Below are positions 10,458 through 32,319 of a stretch of 36,388 nucleotides of DNA, piece after piece; position 1 is the stretch's first letter; every line of letters starts with the position of its first letter. The notes under the pieces were generated by a model. That model did not search any database, had not been told where the DNA came from, and saw only the letters and a program-made list of their open reading frames with translations. Source of the DNA: Bacteroidaceae bacterium (GTDB lineage: Bacteria > Bacteroidota > Bacteroidia > Bacteroidales > Bacteroidaceae); contig JAFYAT010000007.1 of the NCBI GenBank assembly GCA_017540585.1, forward strand, positions 1 to 36,388, written 5' to 3'. Both the position numbers and the translations under genes were made by a program.

Positions 10458-10514
10458 CAAAGGTACGGAGTATTCTGCACATACGAAATCCCTAATGTGG
10501 GGTATTCTTATACC
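10458..10514 (-). promoter_or_regulatory. Shared-regulon promoter A (PstS-like gene)
   Basis: Read on the minus strand, there is a perfect dyad GGTAT-N4-ATACC (10501-10514), then GGGATTTC (10485-10492), then the -7 box TACCTTTG (10458-10465). The dyad edge is 36 bp, and the GGGATTTC edge 20 bp, from the start of the -7 box. TTTC lies 19 bp from the -7 box, where a Bacteroidota -33 TTTG would be, so the basal promoter looks weak and activator-dependent (inference). The ATG lies 27 bp downstream. Confidence 0.85.
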
Positions 10515-10532
10515 ATGAATATGGTAGAGCAA

Positions 10533-10560
10533 GCCTCCCAGCCCCCGAAGGGGGAGAGGG
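10533..10560. repeat. GC-rich hairpin repeat plus AT-rich tail
   Basis: A hairpin CCCCC-GAA-GGGGG (10542-10554) is flanked by further pairing CTCCC and GAGGG runs. It is followed up to about 10590 by AATTAAC repeats. A weak hairpin (GCTAT with ATAGC, 10594-10617) and AT-rich sequence then lead to the 3' end of the receptor gene, and may serve as its terminator. Confidence 0.5.
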
Positions 10561-10659
10561 CAATTAACAATTAATAATTAACAATTAACATTTGCTATCC
10601 AGAACAGATGGCATAGCTACAATTAACTTTGAATTTTGAATTATTAATTTTTAATTAAA

Positions 10660-12639
10660 TTAAAGTCCCACACTCACATTCACATAGACATTACGACCTT
10701 TTTGTGGAATGTTACACCAGTCGGAATAAGTAGAATAACGATGGTCAAAGAGGTTCTCCACTCCAGCACGGAGAGAAAGCGAAGACTTACGGACAGAAAG
10801 AGTGTATTGAGCGTTGAGGTTAACAATAGTATAAGCCGCAGTCTCCGTCTCTCCATACTTTGGAGCATAATCTACTTGTCGTGAATTGCCTTTCACCTCC
10901 ACCCTTGTCTGCAACTTGCCCCATAATGTGAAGTCAAGGCTTGAAGCGTATGCAAATGGTGAAATGAGTGGCAATGGGTCCTTGTCTGCATCACGTCCGA
11001 CGGCATAGCTTGCCTTGCCGTACCATGAGAGCCAAGGGAGAACCTTCCACTGAGCAGAGAGTGAAGTGTTCACTATTGTTGCATGGTCAATGTTGCCATA
11101 CACCTTTACACCTTCGGCGCCAACTGTCATGGCACTCAGACGATTCTCAAACTGACCGATGATGTAGTTGTAGAAGAAGAAAGCATTGGCATCAAGGTTG
11201 AGGGTGAAGCTTGTTGACGGATGCCAGTCAATGTTGCCATTCACCTCAATGGCACTCTCGTTCTTCAATCGTGGATTGCCTATATAGTCATACTGGTCGA
11301 ACGTGTTGTTGAGATAATAGCCGTATGCTTCTGTGACTGTAGGAGCACGACTACCCCATCCTGCACCAATGTTGAATGTGTAATGGTTGATGGCTTTCTG
11401 ATAACTGGCTGCAACCCTACCAATGGTCTGGTAATAGCTGTCCTTCATTCCCGGAAAGAACACTCTCAAAGCATGATAGCCCTCCTCGCTGTTCAACTTC
11501 TGCCATTGCTGTGCTATCTTGGCTGTAAATTTCAACGTCTGTGAATGAGGAAGTGACAGCGCATCGCTCAAGGCAACACCTGTGTTCAACGTACCTACAT
11601 CTGGCCATGTGAGCATATACATAGGAGCAGCTCCTCCAGGGTACATGGTCATGTCGGCAAACAGACGGTTGTAGTAGAGGTCATAGTTGAACTGTATATC
11701 GTGAATACCCTTTGATGCTGAAATCAGACTGTACAATCCGCTTGTCCAACTTTTGCCAGGCATGTCCATGTGTATCTCTACGTCAGGACGTGTAGTGTCG
11801 TCCATGATGTGGGTGATATGATTGTAATAAACCTTTGTCTCCCATGAGTTGAGAACTGGATGCTGAAACAGTCGCTTGTACGAGAGAGAGGTGATGAAAG
11901 CCTCTGCCTTGCTTACGTCCATGTTGAGTGCAGGATAGCCCACATCCGATGCACGATCATAGATGAATGTTCCTTCTATTATATTGTTCTCCGAAAGACG
12001 AGTGCCAAGATTGGCAAAGGCATTTACCTTACTGAACTGAGAGAAGTCAACCTCCCTTCCTCCACCTTCCTTATAGTTGTCTGCGTGACGGTAGAATGCT
12101 CCTCCATTGATATAGAATTTATCAGATGAGTATGCAGCATCAGCACCATATACCTGTAAGTGGCCGTTAGCCTCATAGCCAGCAGAAGCATTGCCAGAGA
12201 AACGGTCGGCATCGAATCCCACCTTCCTTAGGCGGAGGTCAAGGCTACCACCTATGTTACCTGTTGATTGAGGATTACCGCTCAGTCCTGAGTTAAGACT
12301 TATGCTCTGGAGATTACCACTCTCCACGTACGAAGTAACAGGGTCCATCTTATCTGTACAAGCATAGAATATCTTCATGCCGTCGATGGTTGTGGAGACA
12401 CGCTCCGTTGCCATGTTATTCACTACTGGCTCCCAAGCATACGAGCCACGACGCACAAGGTTCACGTGCGACAACTCTCCTATGTGCTCGTCGATGCTTG
12501 CCACCTGCCCCTTGATGGACCTCTTACGCCCCTCTGTACGACCAGACACGACCACCACCTCGTCAATAGCATGAGTCTGGTTAGCAATCGTGTCTGCAGG
12601 TAGATATGATAATAATGGTATTAATAGCAAGTTTGTCAT
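10660..12639 (-). CDS. TonB-dependent receptor, copper type (OprC/NosA-like)
   Basis: This 659-residue outer-membrane receptor has a short signal sequence, a TonB-box-like segment (EVVVVSG), a plug (about 40-140) and a beta-barrel ending in an aromatic-rich strand, VYVNVSVGL. In P. aeruginosa OprC, copper is held by a CxxxM pair in the plug and an HxM pair in the barrel. Both are present here: C94 and M98 within ACTDKMDPVTSY, and H277 and M279 within THIMDD. The plug context MDPxTxY is itself typical of OprC/NosA. Further methionines (MDMPGKSW, MTMYPGGAAPMYM) fit the same role. It lies 28 bp downstream of a lipoprotein gene with Met/His motifs and is co-transcribed with it from promoter B. 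Copper uptake is therefore the best hypothesis; it rests on motif conservation only. Confidence 0.88.
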   Translation of the reverse strand: MTNLLLIPLLSYLPADTIANQTHAIDEVVVVSGRTEGRKRSIKGQVASIDEHIGELSHVNLVRRGSYAWEPVVNNMATERVSTTIDGMKIFYACTDKMDPVTSYVESGNLQSISLNSGLSGNPQSTGNIGGSLDLRLRKVGFDADRFSGNASAGYEANGHLQVYGADAAYSSDKFYINGGAFYRHADNYKEGGGREVDFSQFSKVNAFANLGTRLSENNIIEGTFIYDRASDVGYPALNMDVSKAEAFITSLSYKRLFQHPVLNSWETKVYYNHITHIMDDTTRPDVEIHMDMPGKSWTSGLYSLISASKGIHDIQFNYDLYYNRLFADMTMYPGGAAPMYMLTWPDVGTLNTGVALSDALSLPHSQTLKFTAKIAQQWQKLNSEEGYHALRVFFPGMKDSYYQTIGRVAASYQKAINHYTFNIGAGWGSRAPTVTEAYGYYLNNTFDQYDYIGNPRLKNESAIEVNGNIDWHPSTSFTLNLDANAFFFYNYIIGQFENRLSAMTVGAEGVKVYGNIDHATIVNTSLSAQWKVLPWLSWYGKASYAVGRDADKDPLPLISPFAYASSLDFTLWGKLQTRVEVKGNSRQVDYAPKYGETETAAYTIVNLNAQYTLSVRKSSLSLRAGVENLFDHRYSTYSDWCNIPQKGRNVYVNVSVGL

Positions 12640-12667
12640 AAGCGTTTAAGTGTAAACTTGTCACATA

Positions 12668-13675
12668 CTACAACGTTACGTCCCAATAAAGTGAACTGAG
12701 ACCATCCTTGAGGTCATCGCCACCGCCTACTACGTTGCCGTTTGCATCCTTTACCGTGAGGTGTATGCGCCACAAGCCCGTCATAGTGAGATTTATGATT
12801 CCCTTGTATGAACCATCTGGCTGACGTGTGAGCTTCACGTTGTCAGGTGATGTATGGTTTCCCATATCTGGCATACGTGGGTCAATCTCTACAGTGAATG
12901 TTTCAGCAGCAAGTGAGTAAGGAGTCGTTGCAGGAGTATTCTTCTTTGAGATGTATGCACTAATCTCGTTAGTGCCTGTTGCGAAGTCGATAGGATTTAC
13001 GAGGCTGAGATAGTAAGTGTCGCTACCGATCTTGAAACTCTTGAGCCATTCCTGACCCTGTGGAAGTGCATCTACAGTAATGTCCTTGCTCTTTATACCA
13101 CCTTCGCTGCCAAGTACACTTATGTCGTATGATATTGTCCATGAACCATTCTCGCTTGAATCCATGAGGTAAGAAACCCATCCGTGCTTAAGAGCGAGAG
13201 GTAAGTTTTCCAACTGACTTACAACGCCACCCACTGGTGTACTGTGGCTCATGTTCATCTTAGTCATGAACATAAGTGGAGTGATGTTACTTATCTCATA
13301 GTTCTTTACATAGTTACCAGTAGATTTCTTAGTAACAACGAAATAGACATCGTTATAACCCTTATGAAATGTACCAGTCTTAGTGTATGCAAACACGTTA
13401 TACTTGTTATCTATCGTTGTAGAGAGTTCTGGTACAATCTTTACTGTCTGGAGGAACTTATACACCTGTAATGCCTCCTCTGCAGAACAGCAGTCAATAT
13501 CTGCCCTCAAATCTATACCATCAATCTCTATTGTTCCGTTCTCATCATCGTTGCTATTACAAGAGACGAGACCGAATGTTGCTACAAACATGAACAAGCC
13601 TACGATAAGGCGAACAATCTTTTCAATCGAAGCATTCAAAATGCTTACCTCATTAAACAATAATACCTTTTCCAT
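12668..13675 (-). CDS. Lipoprotein with Met/His copper-type motifs and C-terminal Ig-like domain
   Basis: This 335-residue predicted lipoprotein has its lipobox at LVSC (C39). Two motifs suggest Cu(I) or Cu(II) binding. One is Met-rich, MFMTKMNMSHSTP (M135, M137, M140, M142, H144). The other is MPDMGNHTSP (M268, M271, H274), the hallmark of YtkA/FixH/CopC-like beta-sandwich domains; the following GLWRIHLTVKD matches that fold. A CC pair (62-63) lies near the N-terminus. It is the first gene of an operon with the OprC-like receptor, so it may pass metal to or from that receptor at the outer membrane. The start at 13675 gives a longer n-region than usual, but no better ATG precedes the hydrophobic segment. 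Expression is from promoter B, about 55 bp upstream. Confidence 0.8.
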   Translation of the reverse strand: MEKVLLFNEVSILNASIEKIVRLIVGLFMFVATFGLVSCNSNDDENGTIEIDGIDLRADIDCCSAEEALQVYKFLQTVKIVPELSTTIDNKYNVFAYTKTGTFHKGYNDVYFVVTKKSTGNYVKNYEISNITPLMFMTKMNMSHSTPVGGVVSQLENLPLALKHGWVSYLMDSSENGSWTISYDISVLGSEGGIKSKDITVDALPQGQEWLKSFKIGSDTYYLSLVNPIDFATGTNEISAYISKKNTPATTPYSLAAETFTVEIDPRMPDMGNHTSPDNVKLTRQPDGSYKGIINLTMTGLWRIHLTVKDANGNVVGGGDDLKDGLSSLYWDVTL

Positions 13676-13729: not shown

Positions 13730-13786
13730 CAAAGGTACGGTGTTTATCTCTCGTACGAAATCCCCTTTGTGGGGTATTCTTATACC
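13730..13786 (-). promoter_or_regulatory. Shared-regulon promoter B (copper-receptor operon)
   Basis: The geometry is the same as in promoters A, C and D: dyad GGTAT-N4-ATACC (13773-13786), GGGATTTC (13757-13764) and -7 box TACCTTTG (13730-13737). Between the first two blocks runs CCCC-ACAAA-GGGG, a second possible dyad. The DNA just after the -7 box (GCACTCGAAATC) is the same as in promoter C. The rest of 13787-13923 holds no gene I can support. Confidence 0.85.
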
Positions 13787-13923
13787 ATGTTTATGTGGTT
13801 TAGTCTCTCTCATAGCCATCATTCACTTTTATGAATGGAGTGTTACACTATTAGTTCACAGGTATAAGCAACAAGTTGTAAATGACGGAACACAATTATT
13901 TCGGTGGTATAGTAATAATACGT

Positions 13924-14020: not shown

Positions 14021-15211
14021 TTACTTCAGTTTGTCAATAATCTTCTGGAAGTTGTTTGAGAGGAACTCAGACGCTGTCATCTTCACACCGCCTACGGTTA
14101 CCTGACGCTGTGGCTCCTTGCTGTTGACGTCCATCTTCTTCAAAAGATCAATGCGGAACTTGGCAGCTCGAGTAACTACCTTACGCATCTTCTTGTCTTG
14201 TCCACAATTGTCTGCCATACCCTGAAGCAATGGGAGCATGTCGCGGGTGTTTGTCCATACTGCTCCGCCTGTTTTGATATCCTTCTCAAGATACTTGGCA
14301 AGGGTAGCATAGTCCTTACGATAGTTGGCAACAGCCACAAGTGTTACATCCTCAATATGGTCAATACCAACCACATTGTACTCTTTCATTTTCTTCTTGT
14401 ATGCTTGGAACTTGTCCATGTCGAAGCTTTTGAATTCACGTCCCTCAAACTCGATGCTCTCACGTGCACCACGTCTCCACGCATCATCAAGGGCTGTGGC
14501 ACTCTTCTCATCATAGTTGCTGAGTACAGTGGAACGAAGACGATAGACATCAAGGAACAACTGGTCGTCTGGGGTGAAGTCAGTACCAAGGAACAAGCGG
14601 TAGCTTTCCTCGTCAGCCACAATCTGTGCAGCAGTCTTACCTTCAAAGAGCGTCTCAACAACACGCTTCTTTTCGTTGCGCAAATATTTGTTATCCATCA
14701 GCTCAATATATTCATTGAGAAACGCCTTATCACGATTACCTTCCTTAAATTGCTTCTGATACCATGGCAATCCCTTCTCATCGTTGAGTAATTTATCTAT
14801 TGCAGGAATAAACTTATTGAGTGGAGCCGAACCTACGTGAGTGGCACGAAGTGAACCATCACTATTCAGGATAAGGAATGTTGGATAGGCTGCAACATCA
14901 TACTTCTTAGCAAGGTCAGGACCTTCTCCCTTCTCCATGTCCACCTTCCAGCATACGAACTTTGTGTTGAAATACTCGCCGGCTTCCTTCTGTGGGAATA
15001 CGTCACGTGCCATAGCCTTACAAGGTCCACACCATGAGGTATAACAGTCAATGAACACAGGCTTTCCTTGCTCGGCAGACATGCTCAGAATCTCCTTGAA
15101 AGACTTGCCATCATTGAAATCTGTCTGTGCTGTGGCGTTCACACAACATAGTAGCGCACATACAGCCATGCACAACACACTATGCCAACGTTTATATAAT
15201 GTATTATTCAT
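14021..15211 (-). CDS. Secreted thioredoxin-fold protein
   Basis: This 396-residue exported protein has a signal peptide ending near ATAQ (about 26-29) and a thioredoxin domain at about 35-140. The active site is WCGPCK (C61, C64), and the cis-proline loop AYPTF follows. This part resembles periplasmic thiol-disulfide proteins of the thioredoxin/DsbD-gamma type. The remaining 250 residues are helical-looking, charged and lack a recognisable motif. It is the last gene of the SusC/SusD operon, 23 bp after the PKD-like lipoprotein gene. It probably acts on disulfides of imported or surface-bound protein substrates, or keeps operon partners reduced; that is inference from context. Confidence 0.85.
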   Translation of the reverse strand: MNNTLYKRWHSVLCMAVCALLCCVNATAQTDFNDGKSFKEILSMSAEQGKPVFIDCYTSWCGPCKAMARDVFPQKEAGEYFNTKFVCWKVDMEKGEGPDLAKKYDVAAYPTFLILNSDGSLRATHVGSAPLNKFIPAIDKLLNDEKGLPWYQKQFKEGNRDKAFLNEYIELMDNKYLRNEKKRVVETLFEGKTAAQIVADEESYRLFLGTDFTPDDQLFLDVYRLRSTVLSNYDEKSATALDDAWRRGARESIEFEGREFKSFDMDKFQAYKKKMKEYNVVGIDHIEDVTLVAVANYRKDYATLAKYLEKDIKTGGAVWTNTRDMLPLLQGMADNCGQDKKMRKVVTRAAKFRIDLLKKMDVNSKEPQRQVTVGGVKMTASEFLSNNFQKIIDKLK

Positions 15212-15234
15212 AATTGTTTTGTTTTGAAAGATTA

Positions 15235-16809
15235 TTATTCACTTGTTGGGAAGATAGGCATAGGTGAACGAGGTCCCATACCAATGACGAGGTTGCTAAT
15301 GATACTTGGTGTACAACGACGTATGAAACCTATCTTGCCACTACCTGTTACGGTGCGGTAAGCCTCAACTGTAGGTATTCCTCCAACAAGATCATCAAAG
15401 AACCACAACTTGTATGTGTCACCCTCCTGACTACCCACGATAAGGTTATCGTAATTAAGTTGCTTGTCTCCAAACATAAGTGACAACCACTGGTTAGTTA
15501 CGAAGTCAACAGGCTCGTTTACCCCTGGAAGTTGTACCTCAACTTCAGCATCAGAATCTATACCATAAGCATAGAGTTTGCGTCCATCAATGGCATAGAT
15601 ATATGATGCGCTACCACCGCATGCACTCACAATGGTAGCCTTGGAAATGTGAAGACCAGCATCAAGCTTGCGAATCTCATTCAAACTTGCCATCTTACCA
15701 TTAATGATATGCAAGTATCTATTGCCTTCATTGTCCTGAGTAAGAAACCATACAGTTTCAACCGTACCCTTACGTGTGATACCACTGGCAATGCAATCCT
15801 GTGTGGCAGTAGAATCACATGAGAGATCAGTCACGTTCACCACACTCTTGTCAATGTTACGCACGCCATGAAGGGTATTACTCCAGAATGCCATGCCACG
15901 CTGTCCACCAGACAACATCTGTATGTGCTTAGTAACATTATCCTCAACAACAGGCAGGCGGAACTTACCTGTAGAGAGAGATGTCGCACCAGTCATAGCT
16001 ATTGCACTTACACCATTCCTTGACATAAGGAATCCGTAGCCATTACCATTGCACATATTGTAATATTTGTCATCGTTTTCCTCACCAGCATAACAAATGC
16101 TCCTTGTATCGAATATTTGCTTCATATCCTCTGTACGGAATGCACGATAGTCTGCAGAAGTGAATATGTTGAGCATATTAGTCATCTCCATCTCGTTGTT
16201 ATCTGGATTGACATAGTTTTGCTGATACACCATGGCAAGTGACACTGGTGTACCCTTTAAAGGAGCACCAAGAATCTTAGTTAGCAGATTAGACGAAAGA
16301 CCGTTTGTTGTCACAAGGTCGAGGTCAGTATTGCCATCAACAGTCTCCTTAAGTACATAGAATCCATCGGAGAACTCAGTTGACACATTGAGGTTTGTAC
16401 GTGCATACTGAGCAAGTCCTGTTGATTTAACCTTAACCTCAAGAGCCACTACATATACACCAGATGAAAGGTTTACCTCGTAGTTGAGGTTACGCTCTCT
16501 ACCTATCACAGTCTGACGGAATCCGCCTTCTGAATGACTCTTGTCAACATACAGATACCATGTGTATTGCAAATCAGAATCATCATATCCTGACTTGATT
16601 TCAGGTGTTATCGTAAGAATGTTACCTGCATACGATACAACAGATTGCTCTTCCATATTGCCAATGGTAATTGCAGGAACACTGTCAGGATTACCCAAAG
16701 AGCTTTTGTCATCGTAGCAGCATGCAAGAAACAGAGGAGCAAGTACGACGGTAAACAACTTTGCCATCCTTCTTGCCAGTTCTTTATGTTTATTTATAAT
16801 GATATTCAT
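15235..16809 (-). CDS. PKD-like family lipoprotein
   Basis: This 524-residue surface or periplasmic lipoprotein has a signal peptide ending in FLACC (C30 or C31). After it comes a beta-rich region (about 40-130) resembling the PKD-like domain that often accompanies SusD and DUF4843 genes in Bacteroidota. The rest looks like a beta-propeller or repeat-containing domain (for example YIYAIDGRKLYAYGID), but I cannot assign it firmly. It lies 33 bp after the DUF4843-like gene and 23 bp before the thioredoxin gene. It is probably an accessory binding protein of the transporter. The start at 16809 is preceded by GGTAAG, a weak ribosome-binding match; the ATG at 16767 is an alternative. Confidence 0.75.
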   Translation of the reverse strand: MNIIINKHKELARRMAKLFTVVLAPLFLACCYDDKSSLGNPDSVPAITIGNMEEQSVVSYAGNILTITPEIKSGYDDSDLQYTWYLYVDKSHSEGGFRQTVIGRERNLNYEVNLSSGVYVVALEVKVKSTGLAQYARTNLNVSTEFSDGFYVLKETVDGNTDLDLVTTNGLSSNLLTKILGAPLKGTPVSLAMVYQQNYVNPDNNEMEMTNMLNIFTSADYRAFRTEDMKQIFDTRSICYAGEENDDKYYNMCNGNGYGFLMSRNGVSAIAMTGATSLSTGKFRLPVVEDNVTKHIQMLSGGQRGMAFWSNTLHGVRNIDKSVVNVTDLSCDSTATQDCIASGITRKGTVETVWFLTQDNEGNRYLHIINGKMASLNEIRKLDAGLHISKATIVSACGGSASYIYAIDGRKLYAYGIDSDAEVEVQLPGVNEPVDFVTNQWLSLMFGDKQLNYDNLIVGSQEGDTYKLWFFDDLVGGIPTVEAYRTVTGSGKIGFIRRCTPSIISNLVIGMGPRSPMPIFPTSE

Positions 16810-16842
16810 ATCTTACCGTTTAATAGTTATACACTCGGCGAA

Positions 16843-17667
16843 TCATAATTCAGGACGACTTGGTGTGAAACTAACAACCGTGCTATCCTCTTCACGCCAT
16901 ACATCCTCACCCTTTGCTTGACGTGCAGCATTTTCCTCTGCAAGACGTTTGGTAAATATCTGAGCCATATATGACAGATAGTCCTTGTCCTGACTATATT
17001 TCTCCTGAATGAATTCATCGCTCCATGGCTTACCACTCCAGTCTATCATTAACTGATATTTCGTGTTGCCATAGTTGCCAAATATTGTATTAAGTCCACA
17101 GGCATCCCATACAGAAGGCTTAGACAAGCGGTCTGTAAAAGAGATAGTGCGTGTCTGCATCATCGTGAATCCATTCTTAAAGTTATGGTTCTCTTTGAAA
17201 CGAATCTTCAGTACAACGTTCTTTGCCTGAAGATTAGTACTACGAAGCAATACAACAGGTACAAGGAATGTGCTTTCGCCAGCCTTCACTACCTGTATGC
17301 GCTGTGCCTCCTGAGAGTCAAAAGCAACATAATCAACACCTGCGACGGCATTGTCAGCATCCTTAACCTCTACTTGTTCGAGTGCATACTCACGATCGTA
17401 ATCCATAACGAAGCCTACTGTCTTTGCTTGAATCCATACCGTGTCACCCTGTATAGAACCATGTGTCTTGAAGTTATAGAGCAAAGGTGTCTCAACAATA
17501 GTTGGTGTCTTTTCCAAACTCTCGTTCTGATAGTCTGTGCCTTTACTATCGACAAAACGGAAGTTCAGGTAACAGTCCGCATTTGAATATGGCTCCAGTT
17601 CCTTCTCACATGAGGTGGCACCAGCAAGAGTTATGACTGCCAATGCCATATATTTTATTGTATTCAT
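16843..17667 (-). CDS. DUF4843-like lipoprotein
   Basis: This 274-residue lipoprotein has a short signal peptide with lipobox ATSC (C20). The mature sequence begins CEKELEPYSNADCYLNF and is rich in beta-strand patterns. Its size, position and content fit the DUF4843 family, which is usually found directly after SusC/SusD genes and before PKD-like proteins. Its molecular role is unknown. It starts 27 bp after the SusD-like gene, and co-transcription is nearly certain. It is probably an outer-membrane accessory that helps bind the imported ligand. Confidence 0.75.
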   Translation of the reverse strand: MNTIKYMALAVITLAGATSCEKELEPYSNADCYLNFRFVDSKGTDYQNESLEKTPTIVETPLLYNFKTHGSIQGDTVWIQAKTVGFVMDYDREYALEQVEVKDADNAVAGVDYVAFDSQEAQRIQVVKAGESTFLVPVVLLRSTNLQAKNVVLKIRFKENHNFKNGFTMMQTRTISFTDRLSKPSVWDACGLNTIFGNYGNTKYQLMIDWSGKPWSDEFIQEKYSQDKDYLSYMAQIFTKRLAEENAARQAKGEDVWREEDSTVVSFTPSRPEL

Positions 17668-17693
17668 GTCACTACCTTCTATTAAATGTTACA

Positions 17694-19220: not shown

Positions 19221-19242
19221 AATGATTTATAATTATCGTTTG

Positions 19243-22200: not shown

Positions 22201-22392
22201 TACTCCAATGAGCGGTTCACCATGTTCATCACGTACATAACCACTTAGTTTACGGGTATTTGTACCGTCCTGCAGGTCATGTACAGTAGCATGATTCGTC
22301 CGCAGTGGTACTCCTACGGCACTTACGTTTGTCGTCATACTGACTAACGCAACAGGTAGGAGTAATTTCAGTACTGTAGTTCGTTTACTCAT
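19243..22392 (-). CDS. SusC/RagA-like TonB-linked outer-membrane transporter
   Basis: This 1049-residue outer-membrane transporter has a signal peptide (about 1-25). A carboxypeptidase-regulatory-like domain follows (about 45-125, KLSGYVRDEHGEPLIGVPV). The plug carries the SusC hallmark DASATAIYGSRGSNGVIVITT, and a 22-strand-type barrel ends in NIQCSMKLLF. It imports the ligand captured by the SusD partner, using energy from TonB. It is the first gene of a five-gene operon and is preceded by a -7 box (22445-22452). It does not have the dyad promoter found at the second SusC gene, so the two systems appear to be under different control. Confidence 0.93.
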   Translation of the reverse strand: MSKRTTVLKLLLPVALVSMTTNVSAVGVPLRTNHATVHDLQDGTNTRKLSGYVRDEHGEPLIGVPVGIIDGSAGTVTDANGFYTLNIPTSQCVIKLSYVGMESQQFTLANGTSDVKRDITMSGNVQLNDVVVTGIFKKAKESYTGSVTTIDKVDLELHRGQNLLQTIKTIDASLNFQVNNLAGSNPNNLPQINIRGNSSLPMSVAEFNSSTGNSVNTPLIIIDGFEMSLEKLMDYNDEEIESINILKDASATAIYGSRGSNGVIVITTRQPEAGKLRIQAEVGLDIEAPDLTSYDYLNAKEKLELENSLGLYSDDYVPNDFNFQEHYNTKLRNVLSGATTDWLKQPVRTGVGSHYNIRLEGGSDQFRWAASANYKDTEGAMKNSYRRSFNGSIQLVYMLKNITFKNYTTLGLVNSQESNYGSYSQYVSLQPYDIPYDEDGNIRQQFEHFLGSSQGSGRANPLYDAELNTRDKAEHETLTNNFAIEWHIIPDLTLRGQFGISKLSNSSDYFLPAEHSYFTTNSYGHYNEYQDDEGFLRRGLYRYGTGKGYSYDGNATLAYSHVFADKHQLYVGADYNISSRDNLSYSFTGEGISDSDNPFLGNARQYYKNGSPSGTKSKTRRIGLTTNVNYTYNTRYYVDLSYRVDGSSTFGSDKKWAPFWSTGIGWNVHNNNWFKENPVLSVLRLKASIGEVGTQAGSGSGASTVYKSVTSNKYMNWTGSTLTAWGNSKLTWQTTRETNLGLEFAMLNGRLKGEFNYYDKKTSNLLSTMDLPASMGINSYIANVGEVKNRGWEMSLSGYPIRDVNKGFTWMMTGQIVYNRNWITKLSDAVKAQTDAYLEQNVEVANLFYEGMPVNALYAVKSLGIDPSSGKEIYVDRNGNVTDSWRPSDKVFCGQADPKYRGNIGNVIRYKNWTLNFTFSYYWGGYTYNSTLRDKVEVSINALKSQNVDRRALTDRWMKPGDVTFFKGYEENATRATSRFVMKDNVLELSSASLQYRWDSEWLRRTTGMQSATFALNASDLIHWGSIKQERGINYPYSRNIQCSMKLLF

Positions 22393-23965: not shown

Positions 23966-25316
23966 AATTCTGTTTTTTTATCATTATAAACATTACCACG
24001 AACAGTACCCACGGATAGAAAGCTGTAAGAAACACATCCGTAGCTTGAATGTTCACTCCACAAGCCGATGCCTCTATTCCTTTACGCAGCAGAAGGACAC
24101 ATCCCCCATAAGGCAATATGAACGGAAACGTACAGATGATGGTTGCAAGCAATGTGGCACGTCTATACGGATGTAGATGATGCTGTCTGCCTATACTGTT
24201 TACAAATGGTGCAATACATATATTAGCTATGGTATTGACGGCAGCAATAAGTATTCCTGCCAATGACACAAGAGTGAAGATAGCCAGTTCTGCACTTTGT
24301 GCCGAATGAATAAACTTGACATTCATCCACTCTATGATACGTTCCATACATCCGCTTCGGATTATCACTCCAGACAGCGACACGACGACCATCAAAAGTA
24401 TGCAGATACTTGCCATACCTGAGATTCCGTCTGCCACACTACCACTTATGCCATCGTTGTTTATGCTGACAATGTCATCCAAAGTGAACAAATCAAGTAT
24501 ATAACCTATGACCACTGCCAATATAATGCCTGCAAAAATGGAAATAAATATATTAACATGGCGTAAAGAAAGTAGTATGACGACGAAAGTAGGTATGAGT
24601 AATGCAAGTCCCTGCGGATATGTATCTTTAGTATTGATATCCGTTGCCGTTGTAGTGTTGTCTGCTATTGAGCCAACAATGATGAATGCCAATATGGTTA
24701 TGAATACTGCAACGAGTACGAATGGAAGCCTGTCCTTCACCGTTCCTCCCACATCTGCCACCTTGCCGGCATCTTCGTATTCCTGTGTCGAGGCAGCAAT
24801 GACTGCGGTATCGGAAACTGGTGCTATACTGTCGCCAAGAGATGCACCTGAAAGTATTGCTCCACCTAACAATGCAGGATGTGCACCAAGTGCTATGCCT
24901 GCAGGGAAGAGCGTCAGACTCATCGCACTTATTGTTCCGAAGCCTGAGCCTGTACTTATGGCAAACAAGCCCGAGAACAGAAACACCACCACCGTGAATG
25001 CTGTTGAACCCATGTTAATCTTTCCTGCTGCCCACACAAGTCCTTCGACTATGTGCCCTTCTTTCAGGATACAGCCATACACTCCCACCATAAGCCATAG
25101 GAGTGTGGCTGTGGTAGCTGTCTTGCTACCGAAAAACTCAAAAATGACATTCCAATATTCGTCCTTATCCTCTGCCAGGATGGCACCTATGATAATGGCT
25201 ATGATGCCAACACCAATCAGTAGATTGATATCAACGGCTTCAACCAAGGACAGACCGATGGCAGCAACGACAAAGATGCCGAACGGCACGAGAGACAGGA
25301 ATGTATTATTCTTCAT
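23937..25316 (-). CDS. NhaC-family transporter (possible cysteine or amino acid carrier)
   Basis: This 459-residue inner-membrane protein has about 11-12 hydrophobic segments and NhaC-family motifs: FSGLFAISTGSGFGTISAM, ALLGGAILSGASLGDSIAPVSDT and PFVNSIGRQHHLHPYRRATL. The family was named for Na+/H+ antiport, but many members exchange or import amino and organic acids. Here the 3' end overlaps a cysteine desulfidase gene by 29 bp. E. coli pairs its CyuA with the unrelated carrier CyuP. By analogy, this protein may supply cysteine or another substrate to the enzyme; that is inference. It starts 122 bp after the SusD gene, beyond a strong hairpin. No clear -7 box of its own was found. Confidence 0.85.
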   Translation of the reverse strand: MKNNTFLSLVPFGIFVVAAIGLSLVEAVDINLLIGVGIIAIIIGAILAEDKDEYWNVIFEFFGSKTATTATLLWLMVGVYGCILKEGHIVEGLVWAAGKINMGSTAFTVVVFLFSGLFAISTGSGFGTISAMSLTLFPAGIALGAHPALLGGAILSGASLGDSIAPVSDTAVIAASTQEYEDAGKVADVGGTVKDRLPFVLVAVFITILAFIIVGSIADNTTTATDINTKDTYPQGLALLIPTFVVILLSLRHVNIFISIFAGIILAVVIGYILDLFTLDDIVSINNDGISGSVADGISGMASICILLMVVVSLSGVIIRSGCMERIIEWMNVKFIHSAQSAELAIFTLVSLAGILIAAVNTIANICIAPFVNSIGRQHHLHPYRRATLLATIICTFPFILPYGGCVLLLRKGIEASACGVNIQATDVFLTAFYPWVLFVVMFIMIKKQNYERINKTDI

Positions 25317-25438: not shown

Positions 25439-27094
25439 TTAATATCCAGGGTTCTGAGCGATACCGAGATCCTCGCCTGAGAGACCAGTTGGTATTGGCT
25501 GACGATAGTGCTTACCACGAACATTGTTGTACTTAGCACGGAGGTGGTTGTGTACCTTTGTGAAGTATGCAGCCTGATCGTCTGTGTATGTCTGTCCTAG
25601 ACTTGTCTGCCAGTCGTCAGCAAAGTGCTTGTATGATGATACCTTCTTTACTGATGAGATGAGGTCTTTCCAACGATATGAGTTGAAGACAGAGAACTGC
25701 TCGTATGTGAACTCATAATCCCATTCACGCTTGATATCATTGAGTGTTGGAGAGCTTACGCTTGCGATGCCTGCACGCTGACGGAGCTTATTGAATGGTT
25801 CTGCAGCCTCGCTGTTGCGACCCAACTGAACGAGTGCCTCAGCCTTGATGAGGAGTACCTCTGCATAGCGGATCTCGATACGGTCAACTGAGTTCTGAGT
25901 AATCTCAAGGTTCTCAGAGTTCTCGTAGCTCTGGTCAACACCCTTACCATTCACTGGAGTATATACTGGTGAGTAGTAGTGATATGTGAGACCGTCCTCT
26001 GGATTCTTGACTTCAGTTAAGTATGTCTCAGCAAGACGCTTGTCGTTTGGCTGCTCAGCCTTCCAGTCATCGTAGAGGTTATCGTCAGCCACCTCAGTGT
26101 GGTTCTGCTTATAGCCTCTGCCGTTCTCACCATTGAGGAATGGGAATGTCCATGAGCAGTGTGTCTGGTGGTTACCTTGAGCATCTGACTTATCACCGTC
26201 ATGAGCGATAGTGAAGAGGTGCTCGTTTGTGCCGCGCTTGTTGCTCTCGTAATCACGTCCATAGAGCTTGCTGAAATCAGAGTCGAGTGCAAGCTTGCCG
26301 CTGTTGATTACCTTATTGGCATACTCGATAGCCTTCTCAAGACGTGATGGGGTTGTAGTAAATGCAGGGTCTGTCTGTGTTGTAGCAATTGCAGCAACCT
26401 CTGACTCTGAGAGTGGGTTGTCACCCCATACGAGGTATGCACGTGCGAGGATACCCTGTGCTGCCTGCTTTGATGGTACGCGTGGGTCACCATTATAGTC
26501 CTTGAGAAGTGACTCTGCATCTGTGAGGTCGCTCACGATCTGTGCAAATACTTCATCGATAGACTTACGCTCTGTTGTGCTTCCACCAGCCTCTGTGAAT
26601 ACTGGCACTTCGCCCCAAAGCTGTACGAGCTTGAGATATGCAAGACCACGGAGGAACTTAGCTTTACCAACAGCTGCATCGTAACCGCTCTGGCTAACCT
26701 TGCCAAGTGCACGTGAGTTAGTGATTGTTGTAATTGCATTATTTGCCTGTGCTATACCGAGGAAGAGGTGATTGAATATCTTAACCTGATACCATGTTGT
26801 TGGTTCCTGCTCAAAACGGCTGTTTACAGGGCCAGGCTCACCTTCTTCTCCCTCAAAGGAAATAAGCTTGTTTGAGTTCAACTCTATGATGAATGAGAAT
26901 GATGAACTGAGTGGCTGCCAATGGCTGTAAACACCATTTACGAGTGCTACCGCACTTGCATCGTCCTCTACTACGTTTGTCTCGTCAATTACATTTGTAC
27001 TGTCATTTTCGTTATTGTCATCGCTGGAGCATGAGCTGAGTCCACCGAGAATAGTTGAAGCAGCGATTGCTGCGATAAATAGATTCTTTTTCAT
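25439..27094 (-). CDS. SusD/RagB-like nutrient-binding lipoprotein (split from its SusC)
   Basis: This 551-residue surface lipoprotein has its lipobox at LSSC (C22), followed by an acidic Asp/Asn/Glu-rich linker and a SusD fold. Typical segments are AKFLRGLAYLKLVQLWGEVP, ARAYLVWGD, RYAEVLLIKAEALVQLGR and FNKLRQRAG. It probably partners the SusC at 29108-32161, the only other unpaired SusC-type gene here, although SusD normally follows SusC directly. About 2 kb with MNT, repeats and a toxin-antitoxin pair separates them. SusD has its own copy of the shared-architecture promoter (27176-27232), so the pair can still be co-regulated. The ligand is unknown. Confidence 0.92.
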   Translation of the reverse strand: MKKNLFIAAIAASTILGGLSSCSSDDNNENDSTNVIDETNVVEDDASAVALVNGVYSHWQPLSSSFSFIIELNSNKLISFEGEEGEPGPVNSRFEQEPTTWYQVKIFNHLFLGIAQANNAITTITNSRALGKVSQSGYDAAVGKAKFLRGLAYLKLVQLWGEVPVFTEAGGSTTERKSIDEVFAQIVSDLTDAESLLKDYNGDPRVPSKQAAQGILARAYLVWGDNPLSESEVAAIATTQTDPAFTTTPSRLEKAIEYANKVINSGKLALDSDFSKLYGRDYESNKRGTNEHLFTIAHDGDKSDAQGNHQTHCSWTFPFLNGENGRGYKQNHTEVADDNLYDDWKAEQPNDKRLAETYLTEVKNPEDGLTYHYYSPVYTPVNGKGVDQSYENSENLEITQNSVDRIEIRYAEVLLIKAEALVQLGRNSEAAEPFNKLRQRAGIASVSSPTLNDIKREWDYEFTYEQFSVFNSYRWKDLISSVKKVSSYKHFADDWQTSLGQTYTDDQAAYFTKVHNHLRAKYNNVRGKHYRQPIPTGLSGEDLGIAQNPGY

Positions 27095-27175: not shown

Positions 27176-27232
27176 CAAAGGTACAGGGTTTCATGCTCCC
27201 ATGAAATCCCTATGATTTGGTATATTGATACC
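27176..27232 (-). promoter_or_regulatory. Shared-regulon promoter C (SusD gene)
   Basis: Dyad GGTAT-N4-ATACC (27219-27232), GGGATTTC (27203-27210) and -7 box TACCTTTG (27176-27183) have the same 36-bp and 20-bp spacings as the other three. Here the bases after the dyad are AAATCA rather than CCACA, so only the dyad, GGGATTTC and the -7 box are invariant across the set. The start codon is about 81 bp downstream. Confidence 0.85.
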
Positions 27233-27372
27233 ATGTTTGTGTGATAATGGATTACGCGCCGTCAGACGAAGCATCCAAACCCGACAGCCTTCATCTATTA
27301 TGTAACAATGAGTTAAGCCACCGTTTCATTCATAAATATTAATACCAATCTTTGCAAAAAAGTATTTGATAT

Positions 27373-27748: not shown

Positions 27749-27841
27749 TATTACTCCTATATTACCACTTGCAAAGACATTCCTCGAAAAAACTAAAGAT
27801 ATTCTTAAGGAATAACTATGACCTTCTGAAGTCTGCCAGCA

Positions 27842-27929
27842 GATATATATCTGAATTACGTAGGATATATATCTTACGCTCGTCTGATATATATCCTAAT
27901 GCTGTCAGATATATATCTTTTTCAATACA
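27842..27929 (+). repeat. Four GATATATATC palindromes at an exact 22-bp period
   Basis: The perfect 10-bp palindrome GATATATATC starts at 27842, 27864, 27886 and 27908. The intervals are exactly 22 bp and the 12-bp sequences between copies are unrelated to one another. Because 22 is not a multiple of three, this is not caused by coding. The pattern places all four sites on the same helical face, as in iterons or a cooperative operator array. Confidence 0.9.
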
Positions 27930-27987
27930 AATATTATAGTTGATTTTCAGACATTTCTAATCCACACTTACTTTATCCGTTTATCAC

Positions 27988-28042
27988 CTGTTTAACGTCT
28001 GTTAAACGGTTGTTAAACGGTTGTTAAACGGTTGTTAAACGC
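27988..28042 (+). repeat. Five-copy 11-bp tandem repeat (TTGTTAAACGG)
   Basis: Five contiguous 11-bp units occur: CTGTTTAACGT, CTGTTAAACGG, TTGTTAAACGG twice, and TTGTTAAACGC. The first and last units are the most divergent. The array is 70 bp after the GATATATATC array and has exactly half its period. Confidence 0.88.
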
Positions 28043-28128
28043 CTCGGATGACAGTCCTGCCTACAGAAAAAATAATGTTTGCCCAACGTAAATTCTCTGT
28101 TTGTTCTGCGTGAATTCTATAAATTGCC

Positions 28129-28192
28129 CCGTGGTACAGTCGTACCGCCCCGTGGTACGGTAATACCACGGCGTGGTACGACTGTACCACGG
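28129..28192. repeat. 64-nt near-perfect palindrome
   Basis: Two 29-nt arms (28129-28157 and 28164-28192) pair at 27 of 29 positions around a 6-nt loop. The arm begins CCGTGGTACAGTCGTACC, and CCCCGTGGTAC also occurs as a direct repeat within it. It would form a very stable hairpin or cruciform. With the two arrays it fills the gene-free region 27749-28303, where I find no supportable CDS. Confidence 0.88.
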
Positions 28193-28303
28193 CGTGATTT
28201 CAAGAATTGTTGCACGTCGATCATAGAATTATCGTGCTTGATGTAAAGAATTGTTCCGCAATAACGAAATAAATGTTCAGAAACTTCATGGATTTTATCC
28301 TTA

Positions 28304-28358: not shown

Positions 28359-28772
28359 TTATCTCTTGTGCGATAATATGTCAAGTAGCTCGGAATATTT
28401 CAGAATTGGTATTCCTTCATGCTGTTTTAAGTCGGTAAGGTCACGGTCGCCACTGACAATGTAATCGACAGGAACACTTTCTGCCATTGAAAGAAGGTAA
28501 AGGTCTTTTGGATCACGAATGTCAGATTTTGCATCAACGGTTATTTCCGTAAACAAGCAGATATCATAGATCATTTCGAAGAAGTAGTAACGGGTTTCAT
28601 TAGAAATGAGTTTGTCAAACTTCTTACGTGCTATGACTCCTTTGATTTCGTCTATTAGCTGTTCGCAGACATATATCTGAATGTCATTTCGACACAAAAC
28701 ATCAGCAAGTGACGAAAGTCGCTTGCCAATCATGAATGAAATCCATAGATTTGTGTCAAATAAAACTTTCAT
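28359..28772 (-). CDS. PIN-domain toxin of a type II toxin-antitoxin pair
   Basis: This 137-residue protein is a putative RNase of the PIN family. The acidic residues expected around its Mg2+ site are present: D6 in LFDTN, E42 in DEIKG, D87 and D90 in DPKD, and D109/D111 in SGDRDL. The layout, with MKVLFDTNLW at the start and PILKYSELLDIL at the end, matches the subfamily often annotated as toxin component, PIN family. Its ATG overlaps the antitoxin stop (ATGA at 28769-28772), showing translational coupling. A 22-bp terminator follows. Its RNA target is not predictable. Confidence 0.9.
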   Translation of the reverse strand: MKVLFDTNLWISFMIGKRLSSLADVLCRNDIQIYVCEQLIDEIKGVIARKKFDKLISNETRYYFFEMIYDICLFTEITVDAKSDIRDPKDLYLLSMAESVPVDYIVSGDRDLTDLKQHEGIPILKYSELLDILSHKR

Positions 28773-28960
28773 AGCCCATTCCTATATGCATTGATTTCAG
28801 CCTGAATTTCTTCGTCTGTCATCTGTGATGTAGATTGGCATGAATTGATGAATCGCTCAACTGATGTTTGACGACGACGCATAGTCCAACCCATGCGCTG
28901 AGCAAGTGTCTCAATGAGAGCGGCATCCTGTGTAGGAATTGATAGTACGAGTTCCTCCAT
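28769..28960 (-). CDS. Antitoxin of the PIN pair
   Basis: This 63-residue protein, MEELVLSIP near the start, is an antitoxin-like protein placed directly before the PIN gene with a 4-bp overlap. It has an N-terminal beta-strand segment (LVLSIP), a helix carrying QRMGW and RRRQTSVERF, and an acidic C-terminus (TDEEIQAEINAYRNG) typical of antitoxin tails that wrap the toxin. I cannot place it in a named antitoxin family with confidence. Such proteins usually neutralise the toxin and repress their own promoter. A -7 box lies 29 bp upstream. Confidence 0.85.
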   Translation of the reverse strand: MEELVLSIPTQDAALIETLAQRMGWTMRRRQTSVERFINSCQSTSQMTDEEIQAEINAYRNGL

Positions 28961-29098: not shown

Positions 29099-29107
29099 AA
29101 TTATAAG

Positions 29108-32100
29108 CTATAATGTGAGGTTGACACCGAATGTGAATGTGCGTGCCGATGGATAGGCTCCGCTGTCTGTTCCACTGCTCACCTCTGGGTCGTATCCCTT
29201 GTAAGGCGAGATTGTGAAGAGGTTGGAAGCCGTGGCATACACCCTGATGCCGAATGGTACTGACTTAGGCAGACGTGGACGATAGCCGATGGTCACGTTG
29301 CGCAGTTTGAGATAAGACGCTGACTGCACATAGCGGTCATCAATATATGAGAACGGACGTGTGTTAGTGGCAAGTGCAAGTGTGTTGCCACCATTCTCAG
29401 GAGTCCAGCTGTTGAGTACAGTCGTAAGCACATTGTACGAATCGCCAGTAAGTTCAAGTCGGCGTCCGAGCGCATTGTATAGTTCCGCTCCATGGCTACC
29501 AGCAAATGAGAGTGAGAAGTCGAAGTCGCATACCTGCAACTGAGTTGAGAATCCGTAAGTAAAGTCTGGCTGTATGCTTCCGAGTACAACACGGTCGTTG
29601 CCGTCAATCTTGCCGTCGCCATTGACATCCACATACTTCAAGTCACCAGCCTTAGATGTCTGTCCGTTGACAAGAGGAAGCTTGCTAACGTCCTCACCGC
29701 TCTGCACAATACCATCGAACTTCAGTCCGTAGAAAGAACCGAGTGACTCTCCCTTGCGAAGTATAGTCTGATTGTCTGAGCCCATAAGCACATTGTCCGT
29801 CTTACCCATATCCGTGATGGTGTTCTTGTTGTATGCTATATTGGCAGAAGCCGTCCACGTCAAGCGACGACGCTTGAGTAACGTACCGTTGACAGCAAAC
29901 TCCACTCCCTTGTTCTCTACATTACCCACATTCTGATATTGAGTTGTAACACCAGAAGCGAATCCCATTGGTACCTCAAGCAGAAGGTCGTAAGTCTTCT
30001 TGTAATATGCATCCAACACAAAGTCAAGACGACCGTGGAAAAGACCGAGGTCAATGCCAAGATTGTATGATGCCGTCTTCTCCCATTTCAACTGGTCGTT
30101 ACTTGTGGTCTTCTTGGAATAAGATGATGAGCCTGCGTATGAGCCTGTGGCATAAGCTGTCTTATACACATAATCAGGAATGTTTTGATTACCTACTACA
30201 CCACCAGTAAGACGAACCTTCAGATAGTCTATTTTATTCACCTTGGCAAGGAAAGCTTCCCTGTCAACGTTCCATGAGATACCGAGCGAAGGAAAGTATT
30301 CCCAACGATGATTCTCTGCCAATCGAGTAGAATGATCAGCACGGAAAGTAGCAGTAGCATTGTAGCGGTTGAGCAGAGAGTAGTTCACACGTGCAATGAC
30401 ACTATTCAGTTCATAATCTGTTCTACCTGTCTGAGGTACATGAATTTCTTTACCATCACCGAGGTTGTTATGCTTTAGGGACTCGTTAGTAAAACTGTTT
30501 GTCTTGATGCTACTAAACGTTGATGTCGTATTTTCCTTTGTGTAACCCACCATAGCATCCACATGGTGATTGTCGTTTATATCCTTATTATATGTAAGCG
30601 TATATTCCTGTTGCCAAGAATCACTTTGACGGTTACCTACGCCTCCAATACCTTTAACAAGAAGACCAATAGACGTATATGCACCAGAGAAGTAGTTCTG
30701 CGTAAGCTTCTCGCTATTGAGACCGACAGCAGCCTTGAAAGTGAAGTCACCAATCTTGTACGTTGTCCAGATGTTGGAAAGAAGGTAGTTGTTGATATTC
30801 TCAGCCACACTCTCCTCTACATCATACACAGGGTTGGACGAGTGGTCGCTTATGGCAAGGTAACCATACTCGTATGGATTATTGAAGTTGTATGAACCAT
30901 CAGCATTATACACAGATACTACAGGTGGCATAAGCAACGCATACACAAAACTATTGGTAATGCCTTCAGAGAAAGGTGATGAGTTGAACACCTGCTCCTC
31001 AGTAGTGGTGAGACCTTCCTGCTTGCTCCTGCCGTATGTGGCATTGACTCCGAATTTCAGTCCCTTCTGCAGTTCCCACTCAAGGTTGGTGTGGAAGTTG
31101 TAACGCTGAAAATTAGAATTGAGAATGATACCGTCTTGGTCAGTATAGTTGGCAGAGAAGGCATAGCGGCTTTTGTCCGTGCCGCCATTGATGGATAACT
31201 CATGACTTTGCTGTATGGCTGTACGCAACATTGCATCCTGCCAGTCCGTACCTTTGCCAAGCGAAGCAATCTGTTCATCCGTGTATCCACCCTTATTATT
31301 GAAATAATCCTTCTGGAACTGTGCCCACTGCGAAGCATTGAGCAAGTCAAGCTTCTTGGTAATCGTGCTTGCACCAATATTGTAGCCATAGCTGACGTGC
31401 GCCTTCTTATCGCCTTGTGTACCCTTCTTTGTAGTGATAAGCACAACACCATTTGCACCACGTGAACCATAGATGGCAGTTGCACTCACATCTTTCAGTA
31501 TCTCGATGCTCTCGATGTCGTTAGGGTTGATTGTTGCCAAAGGATTGAGATTACTCTCAATTGCACCAAGCCCAGTACCATTCAACGATTCATCCTTGAA
31601 ATAGATGAAGCCATCCACCACGTACAAAGGCTCGTTACTTGCATTCACGGAGTTACCTCCACGTATGCGGATGCTACTCTCTGCACCAGGCTGACCGCTT
31701 GCTGCCGTGACGTTAAGACCAGCCACCTGTCCGCTCAATGCACCATCAAGAGTAGCGGACGTGCTGTTCTCAAACACGTCAGCCTTGATAGACACGACCG
31801 AACCCGTCAACTGTGTACGGCTCTGAGTTCCATAACCCACAACCACAACATCGTTCATCAAGTTACGGTTCTCCGTCAGCTTAACCTCTATCTCTTCCTC
31901 GTCATCATACACAGTAACGTCCTGCTTCTTATATCCAGTGAACGTGATGCTCAACTTGACTGGCAGTTTGTTCACATTAATTGAGAACTCGCCATCGAAG
32001 TTAGTCACCACGCCCTTGGCATCACCGTACTTTACGGTTGCACCTATAATAGTTTCACCTGTTGCAGCGTCTTTCACCACACCATTTATTGTCTGCCCGA

Positions 32101-32161
32101 CAGCTGTCAGGAATGATATGGCACTCAGTGCCACCGTTGTAATAAATCTGTTTCTTTCCAT
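29108..32161 (-). CDS. SusC/RagA-like TonB-linked outer-membrane transporter (shared regulon)
   Basis: From the ATG at 32161 this is a 1017-residue transporter. A signal peptide (MERNRFITTVALSAISFLTA) is followed by a carboxypeptidase-regulatory-like domain (INGVVKDAATGETIIGATV). The plug has SusC motifs (DVVVVGYGTQSRTQLTGSV and DVSATAIYGSRGANGVVLITT), and the barrel ends in TFGVNLTL. The frame stays open to 32218, but those 19 extra residues are polar and precede a good signal peptide. Its SusD partner lies 2 kb away at 25439-27094. It is expressed from promoter D, which faces the response regulator gene. The ligand is unknown; shared control with a copper-type receptor makes a metal complex one option among others. 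Confidence 0.93.
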   Translation of the reverse strand: MERNRFITTVALSAISFLTAVGQTINGVVKDAATGETIIGATVKYGDAKGVVTNFDGEFSINVNKLPVKLSITFTGYKKQDVTVYDDEEEIEVKLTENRNLMNDVVVVGYGTQSRTQLTGSVVSIKADVFENSTSATLDGALSGQVAGLNVTAASGQPGAESSIRIRGGNSVNASNEPLYVVDGFIYFKDESLNGTGLGAIESNLNPLATINPNDIESIEILKDVSATAIYGSRGANGVVLITTKKGTQGDKKAHVSYGYNIGASTITKKLDLLNASQWAQFQKDYFNNKGGYTDEQIASLGKGTDWQDAMLRTAIQQSHELSINGGTDKSRYAFSANYTDQDGIILNSNFQRYNFHTNLEWELQKGLKFGVNATYGRSKQEGLTTTEEQVFNSSPFSEGITNSFVYALLMPPVVSVYNADGSYNFNNPYEYGYLAISDHSSNPVYDVEESVAENINNYLLSNIWTTYKIGDFTFKAAVGLNSEKLTQNYFSGAYTSIGLLVKGIGGVGNRQSDSWQQEYTLTYNKDINDNHHVDAMVGYTKENTTSTFSSIKTNSFTNESLKHNNLGDGKEIHVPQTGRTDYELNSVIARVNYSLLNRYNATATFRADHSTRLAENHRWEYFPSLGISWNVDREAFLAKVNKIDYLKVRLTGGVVGNQNIPDYVYKTAYATGSYAGSSSYSKKTTSNDQLKWEKTASYNLGIDLGLFHGRLDFVLDAYYKKTYDLLLEVPMGFASGVTTQYQNVGNVENKGVEFAVNGTLLKRRRLTWTASANIAYNKNTITDMGKTDNVLMGSDNQTILRKGESLGSFYGLKFDGIVQSGEDVSKLPLVNGQTSKAGDLKYVDVNGDGKIDGNDRVVLGSIQPDFTYGFSTQLQVCDFDFSLSFAGSHGAELYNALGRRLELTGDSYNVLTTVLNSWTPENGGNTLALATNTRPFSYIDDRYVQSASYLKLRNVTIGYRPRLPKSVPFGIRVYATASNLFTISPYKGYDPEVSSGTDSGAYPSARTFTFGVNLTL

Positions 32162-32208
32162 GTCTTCGTACTTGTTTTGTTTATCATCATTCCTCTCTTC
32201 ATTAGTCA

Positions 32209-32242
32209 CCCTCCCCATAGAGGGGGAGGGATGGGGAGAGGG
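32209..32242. repeat. CT/GA-rich hairpin in the SusC leader
   Basis: CCCTCCCC (32209-32216) pairs with GGGGAGGG (32223-32230), and more G-rich sequence follows. It lies in the untranslated leader between promoter D and the SusC start, and resembles the hairpin repeats at 967, 3397 and 10533. Confidence 0.5.
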
Positions 32243-32262
32243 TCTTCTTTTCTTTTTGGCTG

Positions 32263-32319
32263 CAAAGGTACTGCCTTTTCTTCTTCTCCGAAATCCCTTT
32301 TGTGGGGTATATACATACC
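32263..32319 (-). promoter_or_regulatory. Shared-regulon promoter D (SusC gene, next to regulator)
   Basis: Dyad GGTAT-N4-ATACC (32306-32319), GGGATTTC (32290-32297) and -7 box TACCTTTG (32263-32270) have the same spacing as at A, B and C. The dyad is 78 bp from the -33 box of the divergent response regulator gene, so one bound protein could influence both directions. Confidence 0.85.

Follow-up and report, generated by a model that had tools for sequence, protein, structure and literature searches.

Response regulators of the NarL, VraR and RcsB type combine a receiver domain, with its invariant phospho-acceptor aspartate, and a GerE helix-turn-helix (HTH) domain, and NarL sites are TACYYMT heptamers in a 7-2-7 arrangement. 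Sulfur regulators of other phyla belong to the LysR, Rrf2 and TetR families (CysB, CymR and CysR/McbR) and jointly control cysK, sulfur transport and sulfite reduction. SusCD loci are run by hybrid two-component systems (HTCS), by SusR or by pairs of extracytoplasmic function (ECF) and anti-sigma factors. The stretch of 36,388 bases analysed here (the window), which is the entire contig C27 of a Bacteroidaceae genome of 3.62 Mb (86% complete, 149 contigs), was found to carry four minus-strand promoters with a common element. With a probability of roughly 0.85, these promoters form a sulfur/cysteine regulon run by the NarL-type response regulator encoded at 32461-33108, which would act as an activator through 16-bp boxes.

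The candidate regulator shares with NarL, VraR and RcsB the receiver, the GerE HTH and the phospho-acceptor, and the boxes in the window, inverted heptamers of the form TACCNYA-N2-TRNGGTA, are close to the NarL site. It differs from these proteins in its proposed targets, genes for sulfur and cysteine acquisition, and no histidine kinase was detected among the 18 window proteins scanned, to which the search was confined. The role would be that of CysB, CymR or CysR/McbR, but taken by a NarL-type protein with other sites. As in known SusCD loci a SusC/SusD pair would lie under a local regulator, which in this case is of the NarL type, with separate promoter copies for SusC and SusD and with sulfur genes as the other targets. 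No Bacteroidales regulator or regulon for cysteine synthesis together with sulfur scavenging was found described in the literature searched, most subscription papers being outside its scope.

Tandem boxes at four promoters

The first-pass annotation had placed four copies of a GGTATN4ATACC dyad and of GGGATTTC at distances of 36 bp and 20 bp from a -7 box, and both the minus-strand coordinates and the spacings hold letter for letter. Its claim that the sites lie beyond chance is also borne out. Within the window the dyad and GGGATTTC are each confined to the four places, and the exact core, GGTATN4ATACC-N8-GGGATTTC, occurs four times in 3.62 Mb, always in the window. At up to two mismatches the genome-wide search added one match, which is site 4 read on the opposite strand (reversed-pattern control, 0). 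The core with the -7 box (up to three mismatches) was found at 92 sites, the window's own four included, in 30 of 45 congeneric genomes (control, 1). Judged by these genome-wide and genus counts and their controls, the element is far beyond chance and conserved. The local clustering of the sites might suggest recent duplicates without regulatory meaning; this explanation has next to no probability, since only the regulatory columns are conserved among the sites, the spacers differ and the pattern is kept outside the genus.

The dyad, although present, did not hold up as the binding unit, for it is the seam between two tandem boxes. In the window the element consists of two NarL-like 16-bp boxes, TACC-N8-GGTA and TACC-N8-GGGA, with centres 22 bp apart, and alignment of 77 sites (up to four mismatches) from 26 fetched congeneric regions and the window gave TACC-N8-GGTA-N6-TACC-N8-GG(G/T)A, two tandem 16-bp palindromes. 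The distal TACC, 12 to 9 bases upstream of GGTA, lay outside the pattern that selected the sites and is conserved in a profile of 50 deduplicated sites with up to three mismatches (T.85, A.69, C.85, C.89). Some sites have a 7-base seam between the boxes; a strict covariation of seam length with regulator identity was dropped, as 7-base seams also occur with regulators of 75-78% identity.

Promoters of the Bacteroides sigma-ABfr type have a -7 TAnnTTTG and a -33 TTTG (PMC7366714). All four sites have this -7 box, and the 19 bp from GGGATTTC to it put GGGATTTC at the position expected of the -33 element. They differ from such promoters in that the last operator half-site, formed by the first bases of GGGATTTC, and TTTC stand in place of the -33 element. 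In each of the four, 31 bp separate the centre of the proximal box from the first T of TAnnTTTG downstream of it. With the transcript start estimated from the -7/-33 consensus of Bacteroides, the proximal box would be at about -41.5 and the distal one at about -63.5. An activator site near -41.5 that overlaps the -33/-35 element is the feature of class II activation, and the geometry of the four sites has this feature, as the first-pass annotation had surmised from the position of GGGATTTC on a poor -33 element.

The regulator gene and its co-occurrence with the element

Beside site 4, and divergent from the SusC promoter, stands a gene that the first-pass annotation left unnamed. The C-terminal GerE/LuxR HTH of its product matches PF00196 (52.5 bits, cut-off 23.5), and the protein aligns near full length with solved chains of VraR, NarL and RcsB (phmmer). 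The Pfam receiver model gave no match in it. Across all 81 aligned sequences no variation was seen at D10, at the phospho-acceptor D56, at K106 or in the H182-K189 stretch of the recognition helix; the relatives used were the best 80 of 144 taken from genome contigs, among them Parabacteroides massiliensis, Bacteroides reticulotermitis, Bacteroides neonati, Phocaeicola barnesiae, Xylanibacter caecicola, Muribaculaceae and Dysgonomonadaceae. The protein is not the nitrate/nitrite NarL equivalog (56.7 bits, cut-off 250), and among the 25 NCBIfam matches listed none reaches its cut-off.

A strong regulator match (>150 bits) is present in 32 of the 45 genus genomes, that of G003 being partial at a contig edge, and in the remaining 13 the best match reaches about 40 bits. 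The full element (up to three mismatches) occurs in 30 of the 32 positive and in none of the 13 negative genomes (Fisher 1.4e-9), a co-occurrence that is partly plain linkage because most sites share the regulator's contig. The two positive exceptions are G016, with a 7-base-seam site upstream of its PstS-like gene (also locus L273), and G003, with a site at a YtkA gene. A sequence-only model built from 25 genus sites gave best E-values of 1.6e-7 or lower in the positive genomes, except G003 (4.6e-7), and of at least 1.5e-6 in the 13 negatives. Co-occurrence and conservation make this regulator the likely binder of the boxes.

The 66 genus sites with up to three mismatches, window included, precede SusD, PstS-like, YtkA and SusC genes (counts in Table 1); of the rest, 1 precedes the regulator itself, 7 precede other genes, of which six have the size of CysK (310-336 aa), and 3 have no gene within 700 bp in the gene calls used. 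In G041 a sulfite reductase gene follows a weaker model match (E 4.5e-7). In G010 the CysK gene is the first of a run that continues with ThiF, DsrE, JAB, an SrpI-like encapsulin shell carrying a cNMP domain, and a class-V aminotransferase (cysteine desulfurase type); similar runs were seen in many of the genus loci examined. At L094:5309-10431 this set of genes stands beside a regulon cysK. The first-pass annotation knew of no described regulon with this composition; sulfur and cysteine acquisition is the theme that was found.

cysK and sites beyond the locus

The four promoters had been taken for a local regulon. The regulon stands, but it is not only local, since the box is also found at unlinked cysK genes and, in other genera, stands most often in front of cysK. 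In the window's own genome cysK is on a different contig, and an exact TACC-N8-GGTA box precedes its start by 336 bp. Of the genus genomes examined, 19 of 23 with the regulator and 2 of 12 without it have an exact box within 450 bp of cysK (p 2.6e-4; shuffles 0.6%). Within the sample frame the negative G033 had no cysK match, the positives G020 and G024 had no full one, and seven further positives were outside the sample.

Outside the genus, 50 loci (L293-L342) with regulator identity of about 44-59% were considered; none of their contigs is among those seen for the 45 genus genomes, and two are labelled Prevotella. cysK lies on 28 of these loci, in 25 of them at 32-301 bp from the regulator, and an exact box precedes it in 27 of the 28 (exception L324; shuffled sequence 0.6%). 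In 24 of these 27 the distance from TAnnTTTG to the box centre is exactly 31 bp, as in the window, so that the class II feature recurs there; L311 has no -7 box, and in L328 and L338 the distances are 54 and 63 bp. The full tandem pattern (up to three mismatches, seam 5-8) gave 14 matches in the 50 loci and none when mirrored. Behind the 14 stand cysK (6), SusC (2) and one each of a PstS-like gene, ThiF, an M20 peptidase, a HemC-SUMT-HemD fusion and the regulator itself, and one has no gene.

In the family the search used a single, inner-base-specific box in one geometry only, independent of genes. Among 201 genomes it found 22 sites in 18 (control 0), and the regulator, called present at E up to 1e-35, occurs in 16 of these 18, as compared with 69 of the 201 overall (p 8.5e-7). 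cysK is behind 9 of the 22 sites, a share that is not independent evidence because the letters of the pattern were picked after the cysK boxes had been seen. Sulfur genes predominate behind the 22 sites. Those other than cysK are TonB/SusC N-termini (4, three tested), a cysteine-rich HYC_CC_PP-like protein (3, one tested) and a Cys/Met PLP enzyme, a sulfatase and an MnmA-type tRNA thiolase (2 each, one of each tested); genes beyond those tested were assigned by similarity or by eye.

The OprC-like receptor, YtkA, the HYC_CC_PP protein and DsrE-type genes among or beside the targets would also suit a metal (copper) or redox homeostasis regulon, of which cysK would be a member since thiols buffer metals. 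This is quite unlikely in view of the leading place of cysK in the family scan, of the Cys/Met PLP enzyme, sulfatase and MnmA-type genes found there, and of the sulfite reductase and siroheme synthase fusion seen in single genomes.

A relaxed order-wide pattern, the outer TACC-N8-GGTATTG with the 31-bp geometry, was present in 74 of 393 genomes (control 1). Of 30 such loci inspected, nine lead into FeoA-FeoB fusions (four tested; L350, L356, L359-L362, L365, L371 and L372) and one into a hemerythrin protein (L352); the boxes at the fusions read TACC(N)A...T(N)GGTATTG, mostly with TACCTA/TAGGTA-like ends. As it captured mostly this class, the relaxed pattern was abandoned as a regulon probe, and the inner-base-specific pattern took its place. 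These boxes probably belong to a separate regulon of the same promoter class, and several LuxR-type proteins may serve one general class of promoters, with TACC-N8-GGTA boxes in tandem or singly at -41.5. Their existence raises the question whether another LuxR-type paralogue binds the boxes of the window, the neighbouring regulator being a bystander; a protein on contig C91 of the same genome, with hemerythrin and GerE domains and an HTH stretch similar by eye, would be an example. This is very unlikely, since base 6 splits the classes, being a pyrimidine in both halves of 24 of 27 distant and 21 of 21 genus cysK boxes as against 2 of 30 second-class boxes, and since the element tracks the presence of the neighbouring regulator, which itself adjoins cysK in the distant loci.

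A conserved small RNA of about 150-180 nt was also noticed at L213, L214, L217, L220, L223, L224, L228 and L230, and it is present in 36 of the 45 genus genomes. It has an intrinsic terminator, ATCTTTACTCATAATAATA and GTAAACCATAAAATGTTAGAGAC blocks that are unpaired, and a conserved promoter element of its own, TCAC-N8-GGTATTG. In the eight loci searched, Rfam 15 gave no match. The RNA looked like a regulon member at first but was not retained as a clear one, as TCAC-N8-(G/A)GTATTG or a near form also occurs in regulator-negative genomes and the RNA itself is so widespread.

Proposed mechanism and gene content

For the sulfur/cysteine regulon the following mechanism is proposed. The regulator would bind TACC(N)YA-NN-TR(N)GGTA boxes as a dimer, in the window as two dimers in tandem, 22 bp apart and on about the same face of the DNA. 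The proximal dimer would overlap -33 and, because GGGATTTC stands there instead of TTTG, RNA polymerase would depend on the activator at the box (class II activation). Cooperativity would be added by the distal dimer. The predicted targets in the window are outer-membrane uptake functions (SusC, SusD, the OprC-like receptor with the YtkA protein, the PstS-like protein, SDF and NhaC) and a cysteine desulfidase-like enzyme, and elsewhere in the genus and the order mainly cysK and other sulfur genes. As the signal, a shortage of sulfur or of cysteine is the likeliest candidate, and phosphorylation would convey it to the receiver domain.

Boxes over -33 could also act in the opposite sense, by blocking RNA polymerase until sulfur shortage frees the targets, and many sulfur systems are indeed repressed by cysteine, that of CymR for example. 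Repression is nevertheless unlikely: at -41.5 proteins of the NarL/LuxR group usually activate, GGGATTTC makes a poor -33 element, and from the 31-bp position kept in most distant cysK promoters contact with RNA polymerase is expected rather than simple blocking. The argument from the poor -33 is weaker at the distant cysK genes, because the boxes there mostly read GGTATTG and keep TTG at -33.

Several observations weigh against the activator-run sulfur regulon, in addition to the linkage and the choice of pattern letters mentioned above. Sites 2 and 3 have a poor distal half-site (Table 1). In the window's genome the boxes-only pattern at up to three mismatches gave 13 matches and its control 14, so that weak matches of this kind are meaningless and low-mismatch ones alone count; a two-mismatch site on contig C91, found with this pattern, has no -7 box at the right spacing and was dropped. 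In the genus, four regulator-positive genomes lack the box at cysK (G006, G009, G011, G035) and two negative ones have it (G008, G044). Measured from the -7 box, the centre of the genus cysK box is at 57-59 bp instead of 31 bp in every one of the 19 single-box cases, the two negatives included, and thus departs from the class II geometry. The box is often inside a longer inverted repeat, maybe the terminator of the upstream gene, and in the window's genome 270 bp lie between this -7 box and the cysK start codon; taken alone, the genus cysK boxes give weak support. In the family two genomes (G491, G508) have a box, in both at cysK, without the regulator, and 53 of the 69 with the regulator have no match to the pattern, which permits one geometry only. 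A paralogue could bind some of the sites, because the outer box and the 31-bp geometry are common to the second class. Last, a cysteine desulfidase is an awkward fit to sulfur shortage, and the copper receptor has no obvious sulfur link.

The genes and promoters of the window are collected in Table 1. The SDH_alpha protein is taken by us to be L-cysteine desulfidase-like. The TonB receptor downstream of YtkA does not reach the score of the OprC TonB-copper receptor equivalog. The Cys/Met PLP enzyme adjoins the regulator in many relatives too, and no box of its own was seen in the window. Between SusC and SusD lie a PIN-like gene (by eye) and a small upstream partner (28359-28960), so that SusD would rely on its own promoter copy; over 136 residues the PIN-like protein shows 100% identity to that of G020. 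The same gap contains short repeats at 27830-28200, namely CGTTTAACAAC units, inverted repeats of ATATATATCTGA and others of the CCGTGGTAC type. Inside the cluster (14021-22392) a second SusC/SusD operon, which also encodes DUF4843, PKD_2 and thioredoxin proteins, is without the element; in G020 this operon is absent from the interval between the YtkA gene and SusD. At 1060-8184 three consecutive MacB/FtsX-sized permease genes, of which the first was tested, follow an ABC ATPase.

Table 1 Promoters and genes of the window, with the features on which their assignment rests.
Feature	Position	Strand	Remarks
Promoter 1 (PstS-like/SDF genes)	10458-10526	-	Box 1 10511-10526 TACCATATTCATGGTA, distal half exact; box 2 10489-10504 TACCCCACATTAGGGA; -7 box 10458-10465
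Promoter 2 (YtkA-like/TonB receptor genes)	13730-13798	-	Box 1 13783-13798, distal half degenerate (3/4 differ); box 2 13761-13776; -7 box 13730-13737
Promoter 3 (SusD, NhaC-like, SDH_alpha)	27176-27244	-	Box 1 27229-27244, distal half 2/4 differ; box 2 27207-27222; -7 box 27176-27183
Promoter 4 (SusC; divergent from regulator gene)	32263-32331	-	Box 1 32316-32331, distal half 1 base off; box 2 32294-32309; -7 box 32263-32270
SDF-family symporter, downstream of PstS-like	8252-9490	-	Family match
PstS-like protein, putative target of promoter 1	9538-10440	-	Label of the first-pass annotation; no Pfam match; behind 17/66 genus sites
TonB receptor resembling OprC-type copper receptors	10660-12639	-	TIGR01778 105 bits, below cut-off 472
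YtkA-domain protein, putative target of promoter 2	12668-13675	-	Met/His-rich stretch (by eye); behind 15/66 genus sites
SDH_alpha protein	22688-23965	-	Pfam: serine dehydratase alpha chain
NhaC-family transporter, downstream of SusD	23937-25316	-	Domain match
SusD-type lipoprotein, putative target of promoter 3	25439-27094	-	Behind 18/66 genus sites
SusC-type TonB receptor, putative target of promoter 4	29108-32218	-	SusC1 family behind 5/66 genus sites
Orphan NarL/VraR-type response regulator (P0001), proposed box binder	32461-33108	+	GerE HTH; nearest solved chains VraR, NarL, RcsB
Cys/Met PLP enzyme	33290-34459	+	Several lyase/synthase models, all below cut-off
PatB-family C-S lyase	34614-35798	+	TIGR04350, above cut-off

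It appears somewhat probable that the NarL-type protein is a general sulfur/cysteine regulator of Bacteroidales, a counterpart of CysB or CymR, and that the tandem-box sulfur loci grew in some lineages from an ancestral circuit with a single box at -41.5 of cysK. The compact derived loci would have gathered SusCD pairs, copper-receptor-like uptake and C-S lyases, and in many congeners a CysK2-ThiF-DsrE-JAB-encapsulin-desulfurase set. Such a regulator would have gone unnoticed partly because Bacteroides is routinely grown with about 1 g/L cysteine (media in PMC7366714).

What emerges for Bacteroidales, which are major gut and rumen bacteria, is a candidate regulator with a precise operator and a list of predicted targets. 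The list holds SusCD pairs and transporters, whose substrates may now be guessed as sulfur compounds, and it bears on hydrogen sulfide and the cysteine economy in the gut.

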